Positions 41,338 to 54,994 of a DNA stretch of 64,000 bases are shown in pieces; position 1 is the first letter of the stretch, and the number at the start of each line of letters is the position of its first letter. Made by a program: the position numbers and the translations under genes. Source of the stretch: Chloroflexota bacterium (lineage in GTDB: Bacteria > Chloroflexota > Anaerolineae > VGOG01); NCBI GenBank assembly GCA_016875995.1, contig VGOG01000002.1:1-64000 (forward strand), given 5' to 3'. The notes below the pieces were generated by a model that ran no database searches, had not been told where the DNA came from, and saw nothing but the letters and a program-made list of their open reading frames with translations.

Positions 41338-41418
41338 GTCATTGCGAGGAGCGTTTTTTTGCGACGAAGCAATCTCCTCTTTGTGGCACGGGGATTGCTT
41401 CGCTTTGCTCGCAATGAC
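41338..41418. repeat. GTCATTGCGAG...CTCGCAATGAC palindromic element
   Basis: outer 11-bp perfect arms 41338-41348/41408-41418; inner gaagcaatctcc/ggggattgcttc. Confidence 0.85.
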
Positions 41419-42068: not shown

Positions 42069-44552
42069 ATGGGGCAGGGGCGGGTGGCCATCGCCGCCGC
42101 TGGCGGCCTGGACGATGCGACCATCGGCACCAACCTGGAGCGCATCCTGGAGGCCATCGAAGCCGTCTACCAACCGGCCGGGGTGCTGGTGCTGATGGAC
42201 CTGGGAAGCGCGGTGATGAGCACCGAGATGGCCGTCGGGATGTTGCCGCCCGACCAGCAGTCCATGGTGCTGCTGAGCGAAGCGCCGCTGGTGGAGGGGG
42301 CTATCGCCGCCACGGTGGAGGCCTCTATCGGCAAGTCCCTGGCCGAGGTTGACGCCGCAGCTCGCGCCGTGGTGCGCACACCCAAGGTCGCCGGAGCCAC
42401 CCCCCTCACCGAGGCGGTGCCACGTCCTGAGCTGGTCGAAGGGCCTCCATCCAACGAGATCACCCTCAACATCGTCAACGAGGTCGGGCTGCACGCCCGG
42501 CCCGCCGCCCTGTTCGTTCAGACCGCTGGCCGCTTCCAGTCGGCCATCACGGTGCGCAATCTGACCCGAGACACCGCTGCCGTTGATGCCAAGAGCATGT
42601 TCGGCGTGCTGAGCATCGGCGCCCAACTGAACCACCAGATCGCCGTCGCCGCCGAGGGGCCTGACGCAGACGAGGCCCTGGCGACCATCGGCCAGTTGGT
42701 GGAGAGTGGATTCGGAGAAATGGAGGGGGTCCCAATTCCAACGGTGGCTCCCGCGTCCCCTGCTATCTTGCCTCCCCGTCCCCTCGCTCCCCTGGCTCCT
42801 TTGCCCCCTTGCTCCTCTGCTCCTCTGCTCCCTTGCACCCTGACTGGCATCACCGCTTCGACCGGCATCGCCGTTGGGCCAGCGTACATCTACCGCCCGG
42901 AGGTCTTGACTGTCGAGCGCCGGACGGTGGATGACCCGGCGGCCGAGTGGTCCCACTTCACCCAGGCAGTCGAGCAGGCCAAGGCCGAGATCGGCGCCAT
43001 CCGCTCCCAGGCCGCCGCCGAGGTGGGCAAGGCCGAGGCGGAGATCTTCACCGCTCACCAGTTGTTCCTGGAGGACCCCGCCCTGCTGGATCGGGTGCGG
43101 GGGCAGATCGAGGGAGAGAGGAGTAACGCTGAGGCAGCTCTGGCCGATGCGGTGGCAGGCTACGCCGAGCTCCTGCGGGGCATGGAGGGGGAGATCTTCC
43201 GTCAGCGAGCGGCCGACGTCGAGGACGTGGGCCGGCGGGTGCTGCGCATCTTGCTGGGCATGGGTGAGACCTCCCTGGTCGAGCTGCCGAAGCCGGTGGT
43301 GGTAGTGGCTCACGACCTCACCCCCTCCGACACCGCCCAAATGGACAAAGAGCGTGCCCTGGGCTTTTGCACCGCCATTGGCGGCGAAACCTCCCACACC
43401 GCCATCCTGGCCCGCAGCCTGGGCCTGCCGGCGGTGGTCGGTCTGGGGGAGGGCGCGTTGAGCATTCCCGACGGGACACCCTTGATCATTGATGGTGACC
43501 AGGGCCTGGTGATCGTCAACCCGGATGAGAGCACCCTGGCTGATTACCGCGCCCGCCAGGAGGCGTTGCTGGCCCAGGAGGTGGCCGCCAGGCGCGCCGC
43601 TCAACGCCCCGCTCAGACCCTTGACGGGCAGCGGGTGGAGGTAGTGGCCAACATCGGCGACGTGAATTCGGCCAGGATAGCCCTGGAGTACGGGGCCGAG
43701 GGGGTGGGGCTGCTGCGCACTGAGTTCCTCTACCTGGATCGCGCCACCATGCCTGGCGAGGAGGAGCAGTACGCTGCCTATCGCGCCATCGCCGACCTGA
43801 TGGGGAAGCGTCCCCTCATCGTCCGCACTTTTGACATCGGGGGCGACAAGCAGTTGCCTTATCTCGACATCGGCGATGAGCTCAACCCTTTCCTGGGATG
43901 GCGGGCTATCCGGCTTTCCCTGGATCAGGTTGATCTCTTCCGAACGCAGCTCAGGGCCATCCTCCGGGCGGGCCACGACCGCAACGTCAAGATCATGTTC
44001 CCCATGATCGCCGACGTGGGGGAGGTGCGTCGGGCCAGGGACGTCCTGGCCGAGGTCAGGGCCGAATTGGAAGCCGAGGGAGTTCCTTTTGCTTCCGGGG
44101 TTGAGGTGGGCATCATGGTGGAAGTGCCGGCGGCGGCCTTGGCGGCCGACGTACTGGCCCAAGAGGTGGACTTCTTCAGTATCGGCACCAACGACTTGAT
44201 CCAGTACACCATGGCCTGCGACCGCACCAACGAGAAGGTCGCTTATCTTTATCAGCCGTTGCACCCGGCCGTTTTGCGGTTGATCAAGCGGGTGATCGAG
44301 GCCGCTCACGCGGCTGGCAAGTGGGTGGGCATGTGTGGGGAGATGGCTGGCCAGCCCGAGGCCATCCCCATCCTGTTGGGCCTGGGGCTGGACGAGTTCA
44401 GCATGAGCGCGGCGGCCATTCCCAGAGCCAAGGCGCTGATGGCGGCGATCACACTCGATAAGGCGCGAGAAATGGCTGCCGAGGCGCTCAACATGTCCAC
44501 CGCAGACCAGGTGCGAAGCTATGCCCAGGAGGTCATAAACTCGTTGAGTTGA
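42069..44552 (+). CDS. dhaM: rest of DhaM EIIA domain fused to HPr and full-length PTS enzyme I
   Basis: VLVLMDLGSAVMSTEMAVGMLP (DhaM); VGLHARPAALFVQTAGRF (HPr); GETSHTAILARSLGLPAVVG, GLLRTEFLYLDR, FFSIGTNDLIQYTMACDR, MCGEMAG (EI). Confidence 0.9.
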   Translation: MGQGRVAIAAAGGLDDATIGTNLERILEAIEAVYQPAGVLVLMDLGSAVMSTEMAVGMLPPDQQSMVLLSEAPLVEGAIAATVEASIGKSLAEVDAAARAVVRTPKVAGATPLTEAVPRPELVEGPPSNEITLNIVNEVGLHARPAALFVQTAGRFQSAITVRNLTRDTAAVDAKSMFGVLSIGAQLNHQIAVAAEGPDADEALATIGQLVESGFGEMEGVPIPTVAPASPAILPPRPLAPLAPLPPCSSAPLLPCTLTGITASTGIAVGPAYIYRPEVLTVERRTVDDPAAEWSHFTQAVEQAKAEIGAIRSQAAAEVGKAEAEIFTAHQLFLEDPALLDRVRGQIEGERSNAEAALADAVAGYAELLRGMEGEIFRQRAADVEDVGRRVLRILLGMGETSLVELPKPVVVVAHDLTPSDTAQMDKERALGFCTAIGGETSHTAILARSLGLPAVVGLGEGALSIPDGTPLIIDGDQGLVIVNPDESTLADYRARQEALLAQEVAARRAAQRPAQTLDGQRVEVVANIGDVNSARIALEYGAEGVGLLRTEFLYLDRATMPGEEEQYAAYRAIADLMGKRPLIVRTFDIGGDKQLPYLDIGDELNPFLGWRAIRLSLDQVDLFRTQLRAILRAGHDRNVKIMFPMIADVGEVRRARDVLAEVRAELEAEGVPFASGVEVGIMVEVPAAALAADVLAQEVDFFSIGTNDLIQYTMACDRTNEKVAYLYQPLHPAVLRLIKRVIEAAHAAGKWVGMCGEMAGQPEAIPILLGLGLDEFSMSAAAIPRAKALMAAITLDKAREMAAEALNMSTADQVRSYAQEVINSLS
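42424..42445. repeat. CCTGAGCTGGTCGAAGGGCC repeat inside the dhaM fusion
   Basis: in frame as RPELVEGP; relatives at 2396-2420 and 40091-40114. Confidence 0.65.
42770..42840. repeat. CTCCTCTGCTCC(CCTGC) repeat tract in HPr-EI linker
   Basis: in frame as PPRPLAPLAPLPPCSSAPLLPCT; relatives at 47578-47607 (inverted) and 50936-50978. Confidence 0.8.
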
Positions 44553-50354: not shown

Positions 50355-51920
50355 ATGAAGGGAGTGATGGTTTGGGTTAGCCGTCGTTGGGCGGTGTTGA
50401 GCCTGGCGTTGCTGGTGCTCGTAGGAGCAGCTTTTCGACTTGCCCCTATCGGCGCGAACCGCTTCCATCAGGATGAGGCCCTTTACAGCTTCTGGGCCCT
50501 GCAAGTAGCCAGCGGGCGCGACCCGATCTTGAACCACTCCCCGGTTGATAAACCCCCCCTTTACATCTATACCCTGGCCCTCTGCTTCAAACTCTTTGGC
50601 CCCTCGGAGGTGGCCGCTCGTCTGCCCGGCGAGGTGGGCAGCGTGGCCAGTATCGCTCTTGTCTACTATTTGGCTTCTCGACTCTACGGACGATCTGTGG
50701 CTTTGCTGGCGGCAGTCCTGATGGCGCTCTCGCCCTTCAATGTCCTCTTTGCTCCCACGGCCTTCACCGATCCGCTGATGGTGGCCTGGATTTTGGCCGC
50801 CCTCTGTTTTGCGGCCAGCGGAAGTTTAGGGTGGTCTGGGCTCATGCTGGGGTTGGCGGCGGCCACCAAGCAGCAGGGCCTTCTCTTTGCGCCTCTGATC
50901 ATCATTATCGGCACCCGTTTCCTCACCTCATCTTTCTTGCTCCCCTGCTCCTCTGCTCCCCTGCACCTCCGCACCTCCACTCTGTTGAGGGAGGGGCTCT
51001 TTTTCACCCTGGGCTTCCTGGCCGTGATGGCTCCCGTGGCCTGGTGGGATTCCCTGCGCTGGCGGTTGCAGCCCAGCTATCTCGAGCAGAGCCTCATCAG
51101 CTACGGCGGCCTGACCCTGGTAGACCCGGCTCAGTTGGTTGAGCGACTTGGAGACTGGGCTGAGATCCTGCACTACATAACCGCCTCACCTGGGCTCAAT
51201 ATCCTGTTGCCGGGTGGCTTGCCTTGCCTCATCCTCTACGATCTCGCCCCCCCTCTTTCCCCCCCAAATTGGGGGGGAGGAAGGGGGGGAGAGCCAGCGA
51301 CTTTCTTCGATGTCGTCTTGTCGACTTTCGTCACTCTTTTCCTGCTGGGCCATTGGGTGTTCAGCTTCAATGTCTGGGATCGCTATCTCCTGGGCCTGGT
51401 TCCTCTTTTGCTGATCCTGCTGGCTAGGGTCTTATGGCTGGCGAGCGGGGCATTGACCCATCTCCTATCGCTTCGACTGCTATCCTTTCGAGCGTTCTTG
51501 GCTGTCGTCTTGTTGGTAGCCACATTAGCCGGGCCAGCCTTGGTTGCGGCGCGGAGCGGATACCCCATCGGTGGAGATCACGGGGCCTACGACGGCATCG
51601 AAGCCGTAGCCGACTATTTCCGAGATCGTGTGCCCGCTGGGTCTATCCTCTATCATCATTGGCTGGGCTGGCATTACTCCTTTTACATGTTCGACTTCCC
51701 CCTGGTTCTCCGCTGGTATCCTTCGCCTGAGGAGCTGGCTGAGGATGCAAGCCAGGTGGATAACGCCTGGCGCTATATCGTCTTCCCCAATGGGAAGTTG
51801 ACCGCAGAGGTAAAGGATGCTCTGGCCGAGGCAGGGTTGACGCTCCGCCGTGTCTATTGGACTTACCGACGTGACGGCAGCATCTCCTTTACTGTTTACC
51901 GCATCGAGGCTCGGAAGTGA
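50355..51920 (+). CDS. GT39/ArnT-like membrane glycosyltransferase
   Basis: RFHQDEALYSFWALQVASGRDPILNHSPVDKPPLYIYTLALCFKLFG; polytopic. Confidence 0.85.
   Translation: MKGVMVWVSRRWAVLSLALLVLVGAAFRLAPIGANRFHQDEALYSFWALQVASGRDPILNHSPVDKPPLYIYTLALCFKLFGPSEVAARLPGEVGSVASIALVYYLASRLYGRSVALLAAVLMALSPFNVLFAPTAFTDPLMVAWILAALCFAASGSLGWSGLMLGLAAATKQQGLLFAPLIIIIGTRFLTSSFLLPCSSAPLHLRTSTLLREGLFFTLGFLAVMAPVAWWDSLRWRLQPSYLEQSLISYGGLTLVDPAQLVERLGDWAEILHYITASPGLNILLPGGLPCLILYDLAPPLSPPNWGGGRGGEPATFFDVVLSTFVTLFLLGHWVFSFNVWDRYLLGLVPLLLILLARVLWLASGALTHLLSLRLLSFRAFLAVVLLVATLAGPALVAARSGYPIGGDHGAYDGIEAVADYFRDRVPAGSILYHHWLGWHYSFYMFDFPLVLRWYPSPEELAEDASQVDNAWRYIVFPNGKLTAEVKDALAEAGLTLRRVYWTYRRDGSISFTVYRIEARK
50936..50978. 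repeat. CTCCTCTGCTCCCCTGC repeat inside the GT39 gene
   Basis: in frame as LLPCSSAPLHLRTST. Confidence 0.75.
51247..51289. repeat. C-run/AAATT/G-run palindrome inside the GT39 gene
   Basis: ccccccctctttcccccccaaattgggggggaggaaggggggg, in frame as PPLSPPNWGGGRGG. Confidence 0.88.
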
Positions 51921-54900
51921 GAGATTTTACGTTTCACGTTTCACGTTTCACGTTTCGAGTTGCTAGAGACCTCTGTGCTTTGGCCACTTTGCTCGCCTTA
52001 ACACTGGCCTTCTTCTGGAAGATCATCTTCACCAATCTCATCCTGGTGGGGTTGGACATCTTCACCTATTTTTATCCCTACAAGGCTTACGCTGCTGAAA
52101 TCATACGCCAGGGCCGCCTGCCCCTGTGGAATCCGTATCTCTTCATGGGCGTGCCGTTTCTGGCCAATGCCCAGACAGCACTTTTTTATCCCCTGAACTT
52201 TCCCCTGTACTGGCTGCCTGTGCCCAGGATGGTGAGCTATTCCATCGTGTTGCACGTCTTCCTGGCCGGCCTTTTTGCTTACCTCTATGCTCGCCTCTCG
52301 CTGGGATTGGGAAGATGGGGGGCCTGGCTGGCGGCAGTGGTTTTCGCCTTCAGCGGTTTCGTCGGTGCCCAGGTGGAGCACGTCAATCAGTTGAACTGCT
52401 CCGTCTGGCTGCCGTTGCTGTTCTTGCTCTTCGATTTGGCTTGTGGAAAACCCTGGCGAGGCATACGCCCCTCCCTCCCAGGGAGGGGCAGGGGGAGGGT
52501 GGATCCCACCCCCACCCCAACCCTCCCCCTGCGAGGGGGAGGGAGTGAACAATCAGAGTGGCGGCATGTTTTGCTGGCCGGCTTGGTGGTGGGACTCCAG
52601 TTCACGGCTGGCCACACGCAGTCGTCGTACATCTCCTTGTTTGCTCTAGGGGTCTACGCAACGATTTTCGATTTTCGATTGGCGATTTCTGAATCGAAAA
52701 TCGGCAATCGGCAATCGAAAATCGGGTTGTTGGTTTACCTCTTGATTGTAATCATCGGCCTGGCTCTGGCGGCGGTGCAGTTGTTGCCGACCCTGGAACT
52801 CTCGCGGCTCTCGGTGCGAAGTGGCGGGTTATCGTACCGTGAGGCGGCCTCTTTCTCTCTCAAGCCGCGCTTGTTGCTCCTTTCCCTGCTGCCGACCTTC
52901 GGCGGCGAGGAGGTCTTCAGCGAGTACGTCGCCTATCTGGGCATCGTTGCTCTGGCCCTGGCCCTGGTCGGCGCCCTGTTCCAGCGACGCCATCCCGCTC
53001 GCCCTTTCCTCGTCTTCCTGACTGCCCTGGGCCTGTTCCTGGGCCTGGGTGGCTACAATCCCGTTTACTTCGTCCTGTACAAGCTGGTGCCAGGCTTTGG
53101 CCTCTTCCGAGCGCCGGCTCGATGGTTGTATCTATACACCTTCGGCGGGGCCATGCTGGCGGGGCTGGGGGCGGAGTTTCTAGGCTATCCCCTGTCTGCC
53201 AAAGCAGAGATGGTCGGTTGGCCCCCCCTCTTTCCCCCCCAATTTGGGGGGGAGGAAGGGGGGAGGCTCTGGCCCTGGGTTCGTCGTCGCCTGCTGATCG
53301 CCGTCGGCATATTAGCCGCCCCCGTGCTTCTCCTCTCCCCTTTCCTTGACTTCCCCACCCGGCCCACGCTCTTGGCTTGGCTGGTGCTGGCTTCACTGGC
53401 CTCGGCCTTGCTGTGGTTGTGCTGCCGGATGCTTCCGTCGGGGGTAGGGACTCCCCCCTCCCTCGAAGGGAGGGGCAGGGGGAGGGTGGATCCGCAATAT
53501 TGCTCAGGGCAGGCTCAGGTGGCACGCCCAGTTTGTTGCCTGGTGATCGCCCTGATCGTCGTCGGGGAACTCTTCGCCGCCAGCCGCGGCCTGGCCTACA
53601 ACCATCCCACCGCCCCGGAAGCTTACTCCTCTCTGCGCACCGCCCCGGCTCACCTCCTGGCTGTTGGGCAGCCAACGGATCGCGTCCTCAGCATCTCAGG
53701 CCTGACTTTCGACCCCGGCGACCTGGGAGAGATACGGCAGATTTTCGAGGATCAACTGACTCCCCACGCCATCTACGACTACGTGGTGGTCACTAAGCTG
53801 AAGGAGATCATGGCTCCCAACCTGCCCCTGGTTTACAAAATACCCAGCGTGGATGGCTACGACGGCGGAGTGCTCCCCCTCAAGCGCTACGTCGAACTAC
53901 AACGCCTGTTTCTGTCCGAGCCTTCGCCCGATGGCCGCTTGCGGGAGCAGTTGAAGGAGATACCATCATCACGGATTCTGAACCTGCTTGGCGTCAGGTA
54001 CATTATCATAGACAAGGTTTATGATATCTGGGTGGATGACGTCTACTACGACCTGAGTCACGAGGCCGTTCTAGGCCCTGGGGTGGCTTCTCAGGTGGAC
54101 GTGACGGAACTGCCGGACTTCGCCGCTACCTCGTTGGGCCTGGTATCCCACCTGGAGGGGGCGCATGATCTGCCCAACGGGGTGCCCGTGGCTCAGGTGA
54201 CGATCACCGACGAGCGGGGAGCGATCCAAGGCCATCTCCTGCGGGCTGGCATCGAGACAGCGGAGGGCGAATATGCTGGGGCTCGGCATGACCAGGCCAG
54301 GGTCTGCCGTCACTGGCCCAGCAACCTTCAGGGAAATGACTACCTGGCTCGCCTGGAGCTTGGCGAGGCCCTGATCCCACGACAGATTCTGATCGAGTAT
54401 CTTGCTCCGGTTGGGCGGCTGCACCTGCGGGGTCTCAGCCTGATTGACGATAGGACAGACACTTTTGTGCCCGTGGTTGTTTCCACCGGGGGGCGCTTGC
54501 GGTTGGTGCACAGCGGCGACGTGAAGATCTACGAGAATCTGGACAGCCTGCCGCGGGCCTTCGTCGTTCATCGAGCGCGAGTCCTGGACGATGAAGCGGC
54601 CATTGCGGCCATGAAAGACCTCTCCTTCCGACCTGAGGAGGAGGTCATCCTGGCGCCGGGCGGGGAGGCAATGAACGGGCAACCAGGTGGAGGCCAGGTA
54701 GAGGTCCTGTCTTATGAGCCAGAGCGCGTCGTGATTTCCGCTAATCTGGCTGCGGAGGGCTATCTGGTCCTGACCGATGCCTATTATCCTGGCTGGCACG
54801 CGCTGACCGACGGTCTGGAGATGCCCATCCATCGGGCGAACCTTCTCTTCCGGGCGTTGTACCTGCCGGCAGGTCAGCATAGAGTAGAATTCATTTATGA

Positions 54901-54994
54901 TCCCCTCTCCTTCAAGCTTGGGACTGCAATCAGCTTGACGGCGCTGTTGGGCCTGGTGGCTGGCATCGCTTGGTGGTCCAGAAGGCGGTTGTAG
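51917..54994 (+). CDS. YfhO-like large membrane protein, 1025 aa
   Basis: WKIIFTNLILVGLDIFTYFYPYKAYAAEIIRQGRLPLWNPYLFMGVPFLANAQTALFYPLN; C-terminal DAYYPGWHALTDG, LFRALYLPAGQHRVEFIYDP. Confidence 0.85.
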   Translation: MRDFTFHVSRFTFRVARDLCALATLLALTLAFFWKIIFTNLILVGLDIFTYFYPYKAYAAEIIRQGRLPLWNPYLFMGVPFLANAQTALFYPLNFPLYWLPVPRMVSYSIVLHVFLAGLFAYLYARLSLGLGRWGAWLAAVVFAFSGFVGAQVEHVNQLNCSVWLPLLFLLFDLACGKPWRGIRPSLPGRGRGRVDPTPTPTLPLRGGGSEQSEWRHVLLAGLVVGLQFTAGHTQSSYISLFALGVYATIFDFRLAISESKIGNRQSKIGLLVYLLIVIIGLALAAVQLLPTLELSRLSVRSGGLSYREAASFSLKPRLLLLSLLPTFGGEEVFSEYVAYLGIVALALALVGALFQRRHPARPFLVFLTALGLFLGLGGYNPVYFVLYKLVPGFGLFRAPARWLYLYTFGGAMLAGLGAEFLGYPLSAKAEMVGWPPLFPPQFGGEEGGRLWPWVRRRLLIAVGILAAPVLLLSPFLDFPTRPTLLAWLVLASLASALLWLCCRMLPSGVGTPPSLEGRGRGRVDPQYCSGQAQVARPVCCLVIALIVVGELFAASRGLAYNHPTAPEAYSSLRTAPAHLLAVGQPTDRVLSISGLTFDPGDLGEIRQIFEDQLTPHAIYDYVVVTKLKEIMAPNLPLVYKIPSVDGYDGGVLPLKRYVELQRLFLSEPSPDGRLREQLKEIPSSRILNLLGVRYIIIDKVYDIWVDDVYYDLSHEAVLGPGVASQVDVTELPDFAATSLGLVSHLEGAHDLPNGVPVAQVTITDERGAIQGHLLRAGIETAEGEYAGARHDQARVCRHWPSNLQGNDYLARLELGEALIPRQILIEYLAPVGRLHLRGLSLIDDRTDTFVPVVVSTGGRLRLVHSGDVKIYENLDSLPRAFVVHRARVLDDEAAIAAMKDLSFRPEEEVILAPGGEAMNGQPGGGQVEVLSYEPERVVISANLAAEGYLVLTDAYYPGWHALTDGLEMPIHRANLLFRALYLPAGQHRVEFIYDPLSFKLGTAISLTALLGLVAGIAWWSRRRL
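51925..51957. repeat. TTTCACGTTTCACG tract at the 5' end of the YfhO-like gene
   Basis: ttttacgtttcacgtttcacgtttcacgtttcg, in frame as FTFHVSRFTFRV. Confidence 0.8.
52468..52545. repeat. CCCTCCC/GGGAGGGGCAGGGGGAGGG element inside the YfhO-like gene
   Basis: gcccctccctcccagggaggggcagggggagggtggatcccacccccaccccaaccctccccctgcgagggggaggg, in frame as PSLPGRGRGRVDPTPTPTLPLRGGG. Confidence 0.85.
52661..52725. repeat. GATTTTCGATTG/CAATCGAAAATC element inside the YfhO-like gene
   Basis: acgattttcgattttcgattggcgatttctgaatcgaaaatcggcaatcggcaatcgaaaatcg, in frame as TIFDFRLAISESKIGNRQSKIG. Confidence 0.85.
53222..53263. repeat. C-run/AATTT/G-run palindrome inside the YfhO-like gene
   Basis: ccccccctctttcccccccaatttgggggggaggaagggggg, in frame as PPLFPPQFGGEEGG. 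Confidence 0.88.
53451..53491. repeat. CCCTCCC/GGGAGGGGCAGGGGGAGGG element, second copy inside the YfhO-like gene
   Basis: ctcccccctccctcgaagggaggggcagggggagggtggat, in frame as PPSLEGRGRGRVDP. Confidence 0.85.

Follow-up and report, generated by a model that had tools for sequence, protein, structure and literature searches.

Introduction

Five short repeat elements lie in frame within a single membrane-protein gene of a Chloroflexota genome, raising the questions of how they came to be there and how the gene copes with them. We analysed this gene in a 64,000-nt stretch of DNA (the window) belonging to a MAG of 4.29 Mb in 414 contigs (G000; 95% complete, 5% contamination), and compared it with the genomes of relatives. 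Genome-wide figures cover 1.62 Mb of G000 and 0.56 Mb of the relative G002; genes were called with a home-made caller (87% coding), and repeat families are pattern-based.

Results

The host gene and its five elements

The host gene (51917–54994, forward strand) is a single open reading frame of 1025 codons with no internal stop. The Pfam YfhO match is confined to the C-terminus of the 1025-aa product, which has a confident AlphaFold model (pLDDT 86.9, pTM 0.88) whose best solved-structure matches are the GT-C glycosyltransferases AftD, ArnT and an oligosaccharyltransferase. The product is predicted to be a YfhO-type membrane glycosyltransferase of the GT-C fold. A glycosyltransferase-2 gene and a PMT_2 gene lie upstream. 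There was no PHROGs match for the protein and no Rfam match in 48–58 kb of the window.

All five elements are on the forward strand and measure 32–94 bp. The gene begins with a tract of the heptamer ACGTTTC (4.6 units by TRF, 51925–51956) over codons 3–14, whose coding status depends on the GTG at 51917 being the true start; the GTGA overlap of that start with the upstream stop is kept in both relatives, G002 and L111, the latter being a Chloroflexota MAG and the closest named match to the window. A CCCTCCC/GGGAGGG element (repeat family D11) occupies 52459–52552 as a dimer of two hairpins, the first at 52459–52506, with a DNA fold z of −5.0. The heptamer CGATTTT with its inverted partner forms a hairpin at 52662–52724 (27-nt arms, 89% complementary, DNA fold z −6.6), and is followed by a C-run/G-run palindrome (CGpal, 53221–53263) and by a second, single CCCTCCC/GGGAGGG element (53446–53493), 88% identical to the first. 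No CGTC or GTAG tag was found when the ends of the five elements were read directly. The preliminary description of this DNA had reported five in-frame repeat elements from four unrelated families. All five were where it had placed them, the heptamer hairpin starting at 52662 rather than 52661. The figure of four depends on definition, as the two heptamer tracts form one class (period 7, different units).

The gene remains under purifying selection despite its five elements (dN/dS 0.16). Individual values were 0.163 and 0.168 against two relatives and 0.141 between those relatives, and lineage-specific amino-acid changes were alike across the three lineages (52, 46 and 33). In the AlphaFold model all five element-encoded peptides sit at the N-terminus or between transmembrane helices, and the low-confidence stretches (residues 1–8, 181–210, approximately 250–270, 431–450 and 501–531) coincide with element-encoded residues. 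The peptides are probably extra loops, and floppy ones.

Relatives lack the elements or have other sequence, often other repeats, in their place

We compared the YfhO gene with 24 homologues by protein alignment and with its nearest relatives, which are approximately 80% identical, by DNA alignment. The preliminary description had proposed looking for loss of exactly the repeat segments in related genes. Two segments gave that result: G001, G002, L111 and all other aligned homologues have neither CGpal nor the second CCCTCCC element, and the window gene exceeds that of G002 by 33 nt at CGpal and by 84 nt at the second CCCTCCC element, which lies inside the inserted stretch. The three remaining sites held other sequence in the relatives. 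The gene opens with ACGTTTC heptamers in the window, with AAAGTTT in G002 and with GAAGTTA/GAGGTTG in L111, each tract open and in frame after the GTGA overlap. The DNA of the first loop consists of the CCCTCCC dimer in the window (net +24 nt at this site versus G002), of TTCGAC-like sequence in L111 and G001 and of other inverted repeats in G002, and a homologue from another family (L086) has a CCCTCCC-like element of its own there. The second loop, which carries the CGATTTT hairpin in the window, differs in sequence in every relative compared. In a homologue from yet another family (L090), several of these loops carry heptamer/octamer arrays of its own, including 10.4 units of GCAATCC at the CGATTTT loop. 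Gain alone thus does not describe the N-terminus and first two loops, where the genera differ at the same site in their repeats or other sequence. As unrelated repeats occupy the same YfhO loops across relatives, the loops are recurrent acceptors of repeats.

Length differences inside genes mostly keep the reading frame

A protein comparison of G000 and G002 yielded 110 reciprocal best hits with a median identity of 85%. Internal indels of at least 8 aa with well-conserved flanks occurred in both directions, and on inspection were mostly repeat-derived. In a DNA test, elements were mapped between the genomes by their flanks, whether or not the frame stayed open on the other side. Length differences were divisible by three for 37 of 42 gene-internal elements versus 18 of 46 elsewhere (P = 2 × 10−6), with the caveat that the source side was picked within called open frames; among the exceptions is L154, whose G002 counterpart is split. 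Together with the absence or replacement of the elements in the nearest relatives, this test supports the earlier proposal that several families had inserted in frame into one gene.

Repeat-bearing hosts included atpD, rpoA, galactokinase, glycogen synthase and a penicillin-binding protein. The atpD gene (L020:4303–5766, on G000:C9) contains a C/G palindrome translated as RPPDPLKLGG after the P-loop helix, an insert that neither G002 nor the aligned solved homologue has, and another C/G-run insert lies close to residue 112. A search of the G000 assembly for a second atpD found none. The N-terminal domain of rpoA (L066:15881–16924) has an 8-aa TTCGAC-like insert, SAGLSTGD, that is likewise missing from G002 and the aligned solved homologue, and in galactokinase (L043:18032–19285) a 24-bp TTCGAC element is nested in the loop of a C/G palindrome. 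An insertion of a different kind was seen in DNA polymerase III alpha (L054:6978–11735), where an intein of approximately 428 aa (Intein_splicing and LAGLIDADG_3 matches) is not in the G002 orthologue.

Repeat load across the genome

The 1.62 Mb of G000 contained 293 period-7 and 118 period-8 TRF rows, whereas an order-3 Markov simulation gave none. The excess was limited to periods 7 and 8 and multiples of these, and there were 71 types of heptamer unit. The word ACGTTTCACGTTTC had 114 matches genome-wide in G000 (0 for a reversed-pattern control), 9 in G002 and 0 in G001. The core of the C/G palindrome, CCCCCCAAAGTTGGGGGG, had 54 matches in G000, 28 in G002 and none in G001 or 57 further relatives. 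Judged from such counts, the repeat words are lineage-specific. A relative from another family of the class (G052) had 145 matches to ACGTTTCACGTTTC, more than G000; most relatives had none. We also tried k-mer islands as a repeat catalogue, and dropped them because they were inflated by conserved domains.

With all classes pooled, the 1.62 Mb held approximately 500 elements, 287 of them in called genes, and 187 of 1308 genes had at least one. The implication of the preliminary description that the YfhO stack is unique did not hold. The YfhO gene had six element clusters versus 0.62 expected, ranking second among 1308 genes (Poisson P = 4.8 × 10−5, approximately 0.06 once corrected for 1308 genes), and comparable stacks occur in an oxidoreductase (L023), a GH38 mannosidase (L059), a Wzy/TPR protein (L037) and others.

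The classes differed in their distribution. Merged period-7 arrays (134 genic, 99 intergenic) were depleted in genes yet common there, and genic heptamers were stop-free on the sense strand in 121 of 134 cases compared with 100 of 134 on the antisense strand. CCCTCCC elements were split 14 genic to 7 intergenic. The C/G palindrome was not depleted in genes (44 genic, 4 intergenic), and its genic share of 44/48 exceeded the approximately 70% that survival of one third of genic insertions would give (P = 4 × 10−4), which counts against simple filtering of random insertions. A broader scan found 12 intergenic C/G cores, of which at least one seemingly lies in a gene overlooked by the caller and two or three sit in an apparent broken fdhD, as read from translations. 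In that apparent broken fdhD (L040:6500–7250), the translations place the two terminal parts of the protein in separate frames, with a C/G palindrome pair at the join.

Two further genes in the window carry repeats. A CGTC-type REP dimer (TCATTGCGAG...CTCGCAATGA, 41339–41417) lies within a called DJ-1/PfpI gene, close to its start, and a PTS phosphotransferase fusion of EIIA-man, HPr and enzyme I (42069–44552) has an 85-nt octamer array between its domains (42756–42840).

Array sites are re-used and arrays often have inverted partners

Ten genic arrays of G002 had a syntenic place in the examined part of G000, and at six of these an array was present, compared with 8 of 364 genic places drawn at random (P = 2 × 10−7). 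In four of the six re-used sites the two units were no more alike than random pairs, and two of those four differed in period. On a plain reading of these small numbers, tolerant loops were struck repeatedly. An improbable alternative is that sister genera inherit an array site and swap its word, some activity copying the lineage-specific word into standing arrays genome-wide. The examples behind this idea are the ACGTTTC, AAAGTTT and GAAGTTA/GAGGTTG tracts at the YfhO start and two other genes where a 7-mer in one genome faces an 8-mer in the other.

In G000, 118 of 387 heptamer/octamer arrays had their own unit inverted within 100 nt, versus 16 with randomly paired flanks and 3 with direct second blocks; the corresponding figures in G002 were 21 of 73 arrays, 1 and 0. 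Hairpin arrays were commoner outside genes (56/126) than within them (34/200). A bias of genic hairpin arrays towards units open on both strands was considered and was unsupported (P = 1.0).

Discussion

We think it likely that the YfhO stack reflects a general load of short repeats, of which in-frame copies in tolerant loops survive, and which spread by copying. The lineage is heavily loaded with short (approximately 24–110 bp) dispersed repeats of several unrelated classes, namely C-run/G-run palindromes, CCCTCCC/GGGAGGG elements, the 24-bp TTCGAC element, CGTC-type REP dimers and tandem 7/8-mers, the last often as hairpins. New copies would appear within and outside genes alike, and genic ones would last mainly if in frame, stop-free and in a tolerant surface or inter-helix loop, to be translated from then on as additional peptide. 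In YfhO, which is a large membrane protein and has several variable loops, five elements may have gathered in this way. The peptides are presumably made and nearly neutral. Spread would occur by copying while DNA is replicated or repaired, through hairpin templating, slippage or template switching, and a nearby copy would at times be the source; a dedicated transposase would not be the agent. A candidate for such a nearby copy is the older CGpal upstream in the PMT_2 gene (approximately 51246–51288, forward strand), which is common to G002 at the orthologous place. It is the best match to the YfhO CGpal in the searched sequence (42/46 identical) and lies 2 kb upstream, which suggests that the copy at 53221 arose by local copying from this possible donor. 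Like heptamer units cluster just approximately twofold at 1–20 kb, so local copying does not appear to be general.

The palindromes might instead be MITE- or REP-like non-autonomous transposons, moved in trans by a RAYT or other IS transposase, with the intragenic copies as survivors as in Rickettsia. This is a possibility that we regard as doubtful. The elements are dispersed and palindromic, the C/G cores rose in lineage-specific bursts, and CGTC-type REP dimers do exist in the genome (PMC3733652). By the criteria for MITEs, however, the aligned G000/G002 junctions show no clear target-site duplication, with ends blurred by 15–20% divergence that could hide one, and a genome search for Y1_Tnp, the sole transposase family searched, returned two weak matches; nor do tandem heptamers of 71 unit types resemble the ends of one transposon. 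A purely local origin, in which slippage generates the 7/8-mers, inverted duplication acts at C- and G-rich sites and words recur by shared biases, seems unlikely to us. It would fit the restriction of the excess to periods 7, 8 and multiples, the inverted partners beside arrays and the polymerase-slippage hypothesis cited for heptamers (PMC4692102), but identical words occur at many unlinked loci of one genome and not of its relatives, and the 40-bp palindromes have a whole consensus in common across loci. Since words and palindrome consensus recur at unlinked loci, something would have been copied between loci.

Two other explanations strike us as very remote. Short skipped hairpins exist in other systems, and several of the elements fold as stable hairpins, so the segments could be bypassed in translation or cut from the RNA. 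Skipped segments would be free of any need to be multiples of three, yet gene-internal length differences overwhelmingly are, and the heptamers are biased towards stop-free sense strands; we rejected bypass and splicing on the frame keeping. It is similarly far-fetched that an assembler misjoined or inserted the repeats. A draft MAG of many contigs with some contamination invites that suspicion, as repeats are prone to misassembly, but the flanks are syntenic and in frame, other assemblies have repeats in the same loops, and one element class is abundant (29 copies) in a single-contig relative (G031).

The repeats recall several known systems. Rickettsia palindromic elements (RPEs) comprise several short palindromic families per genome, inserted in frame into protein genes that are not related to one another, some of them conserved (PMC10969869, PMC2229807); they measure approximately 105–150 bp and encode conserved peptides (PMC2229807, PMC10969869). 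The resemblance that the preliminary description had drawn to them holds for how the host gene copes, as the elements here are likewise in frame within protein genes and apparently tolerated. Membership is not supported when set against published size and class: the elements here are mostly 24–110 bp (the clean net insertions in YfhO being the 33 and 84 nt given above) and of several classes including tandem heptamers, and they occur in a free-living-type Chloroflexota genome. Re-use of orthologous sites by unrelated repeats and inverted partners at approximately 30% of heptamer/octamer arrays also go beyond RPEs. REPs of the CGTC/GTAG type have intragenic copies in several phyla, sometimes two per gene, and are mostly extragenic overall (PMC3733652). 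Small palindromes and dimers within genes are shared with them, and the CGTC-like TCATTGCGAG... family in G000 fits the CGTC type, but the YfhO elements are tagless, and the C/G palindrome is in genes about as often as the coding fraction predicts rather than predominantly extragenic.

In Xanthomonas and Nostoc, dispersed heptamers consist of one or a few G-rich units and are mostly non-coding (PMC4692102). In both cases a genome has 7-nt units in tandem at numerous loci, whereas here unit types are numerous, approximately half of the arrays are genic and many have inverted partners. The small variable segments described in bacterial species are short in-frame intragenic differences, several of them in the membrane-protein gene ftsK (PMC2884548); unlike those segments, which are within-species and mostly of other origin, many clean segments here belong to dispersed repeat families. 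The in-gene palindromes of nematomorph mitochondria are of another kind (PMC6649704). A literature search for the exact repeat words, with most subscription journals outside its coverage, found nothing relevant. What appears to be new is the combination of unrelated classes, high genic density including essential genes, loops re-used across genera and heptamer hairpins.

Repeat-derived peptides may confuse annotation and homology searches, and their presence need not mean misassembly. Discussion of coding palindromes has mostly centred on Rickettsia, along with a few genes that carry REPs; a Chloroflexota lineage can now be added in which several unrelated short-repeat classes would contribute peptide to many genes, that of the ATP synthase beta subunit among them. 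Two questions thereby become testable: how short bacterial repeats spread without an obvious transposase, and how repeats serve as raw material for protein loops.
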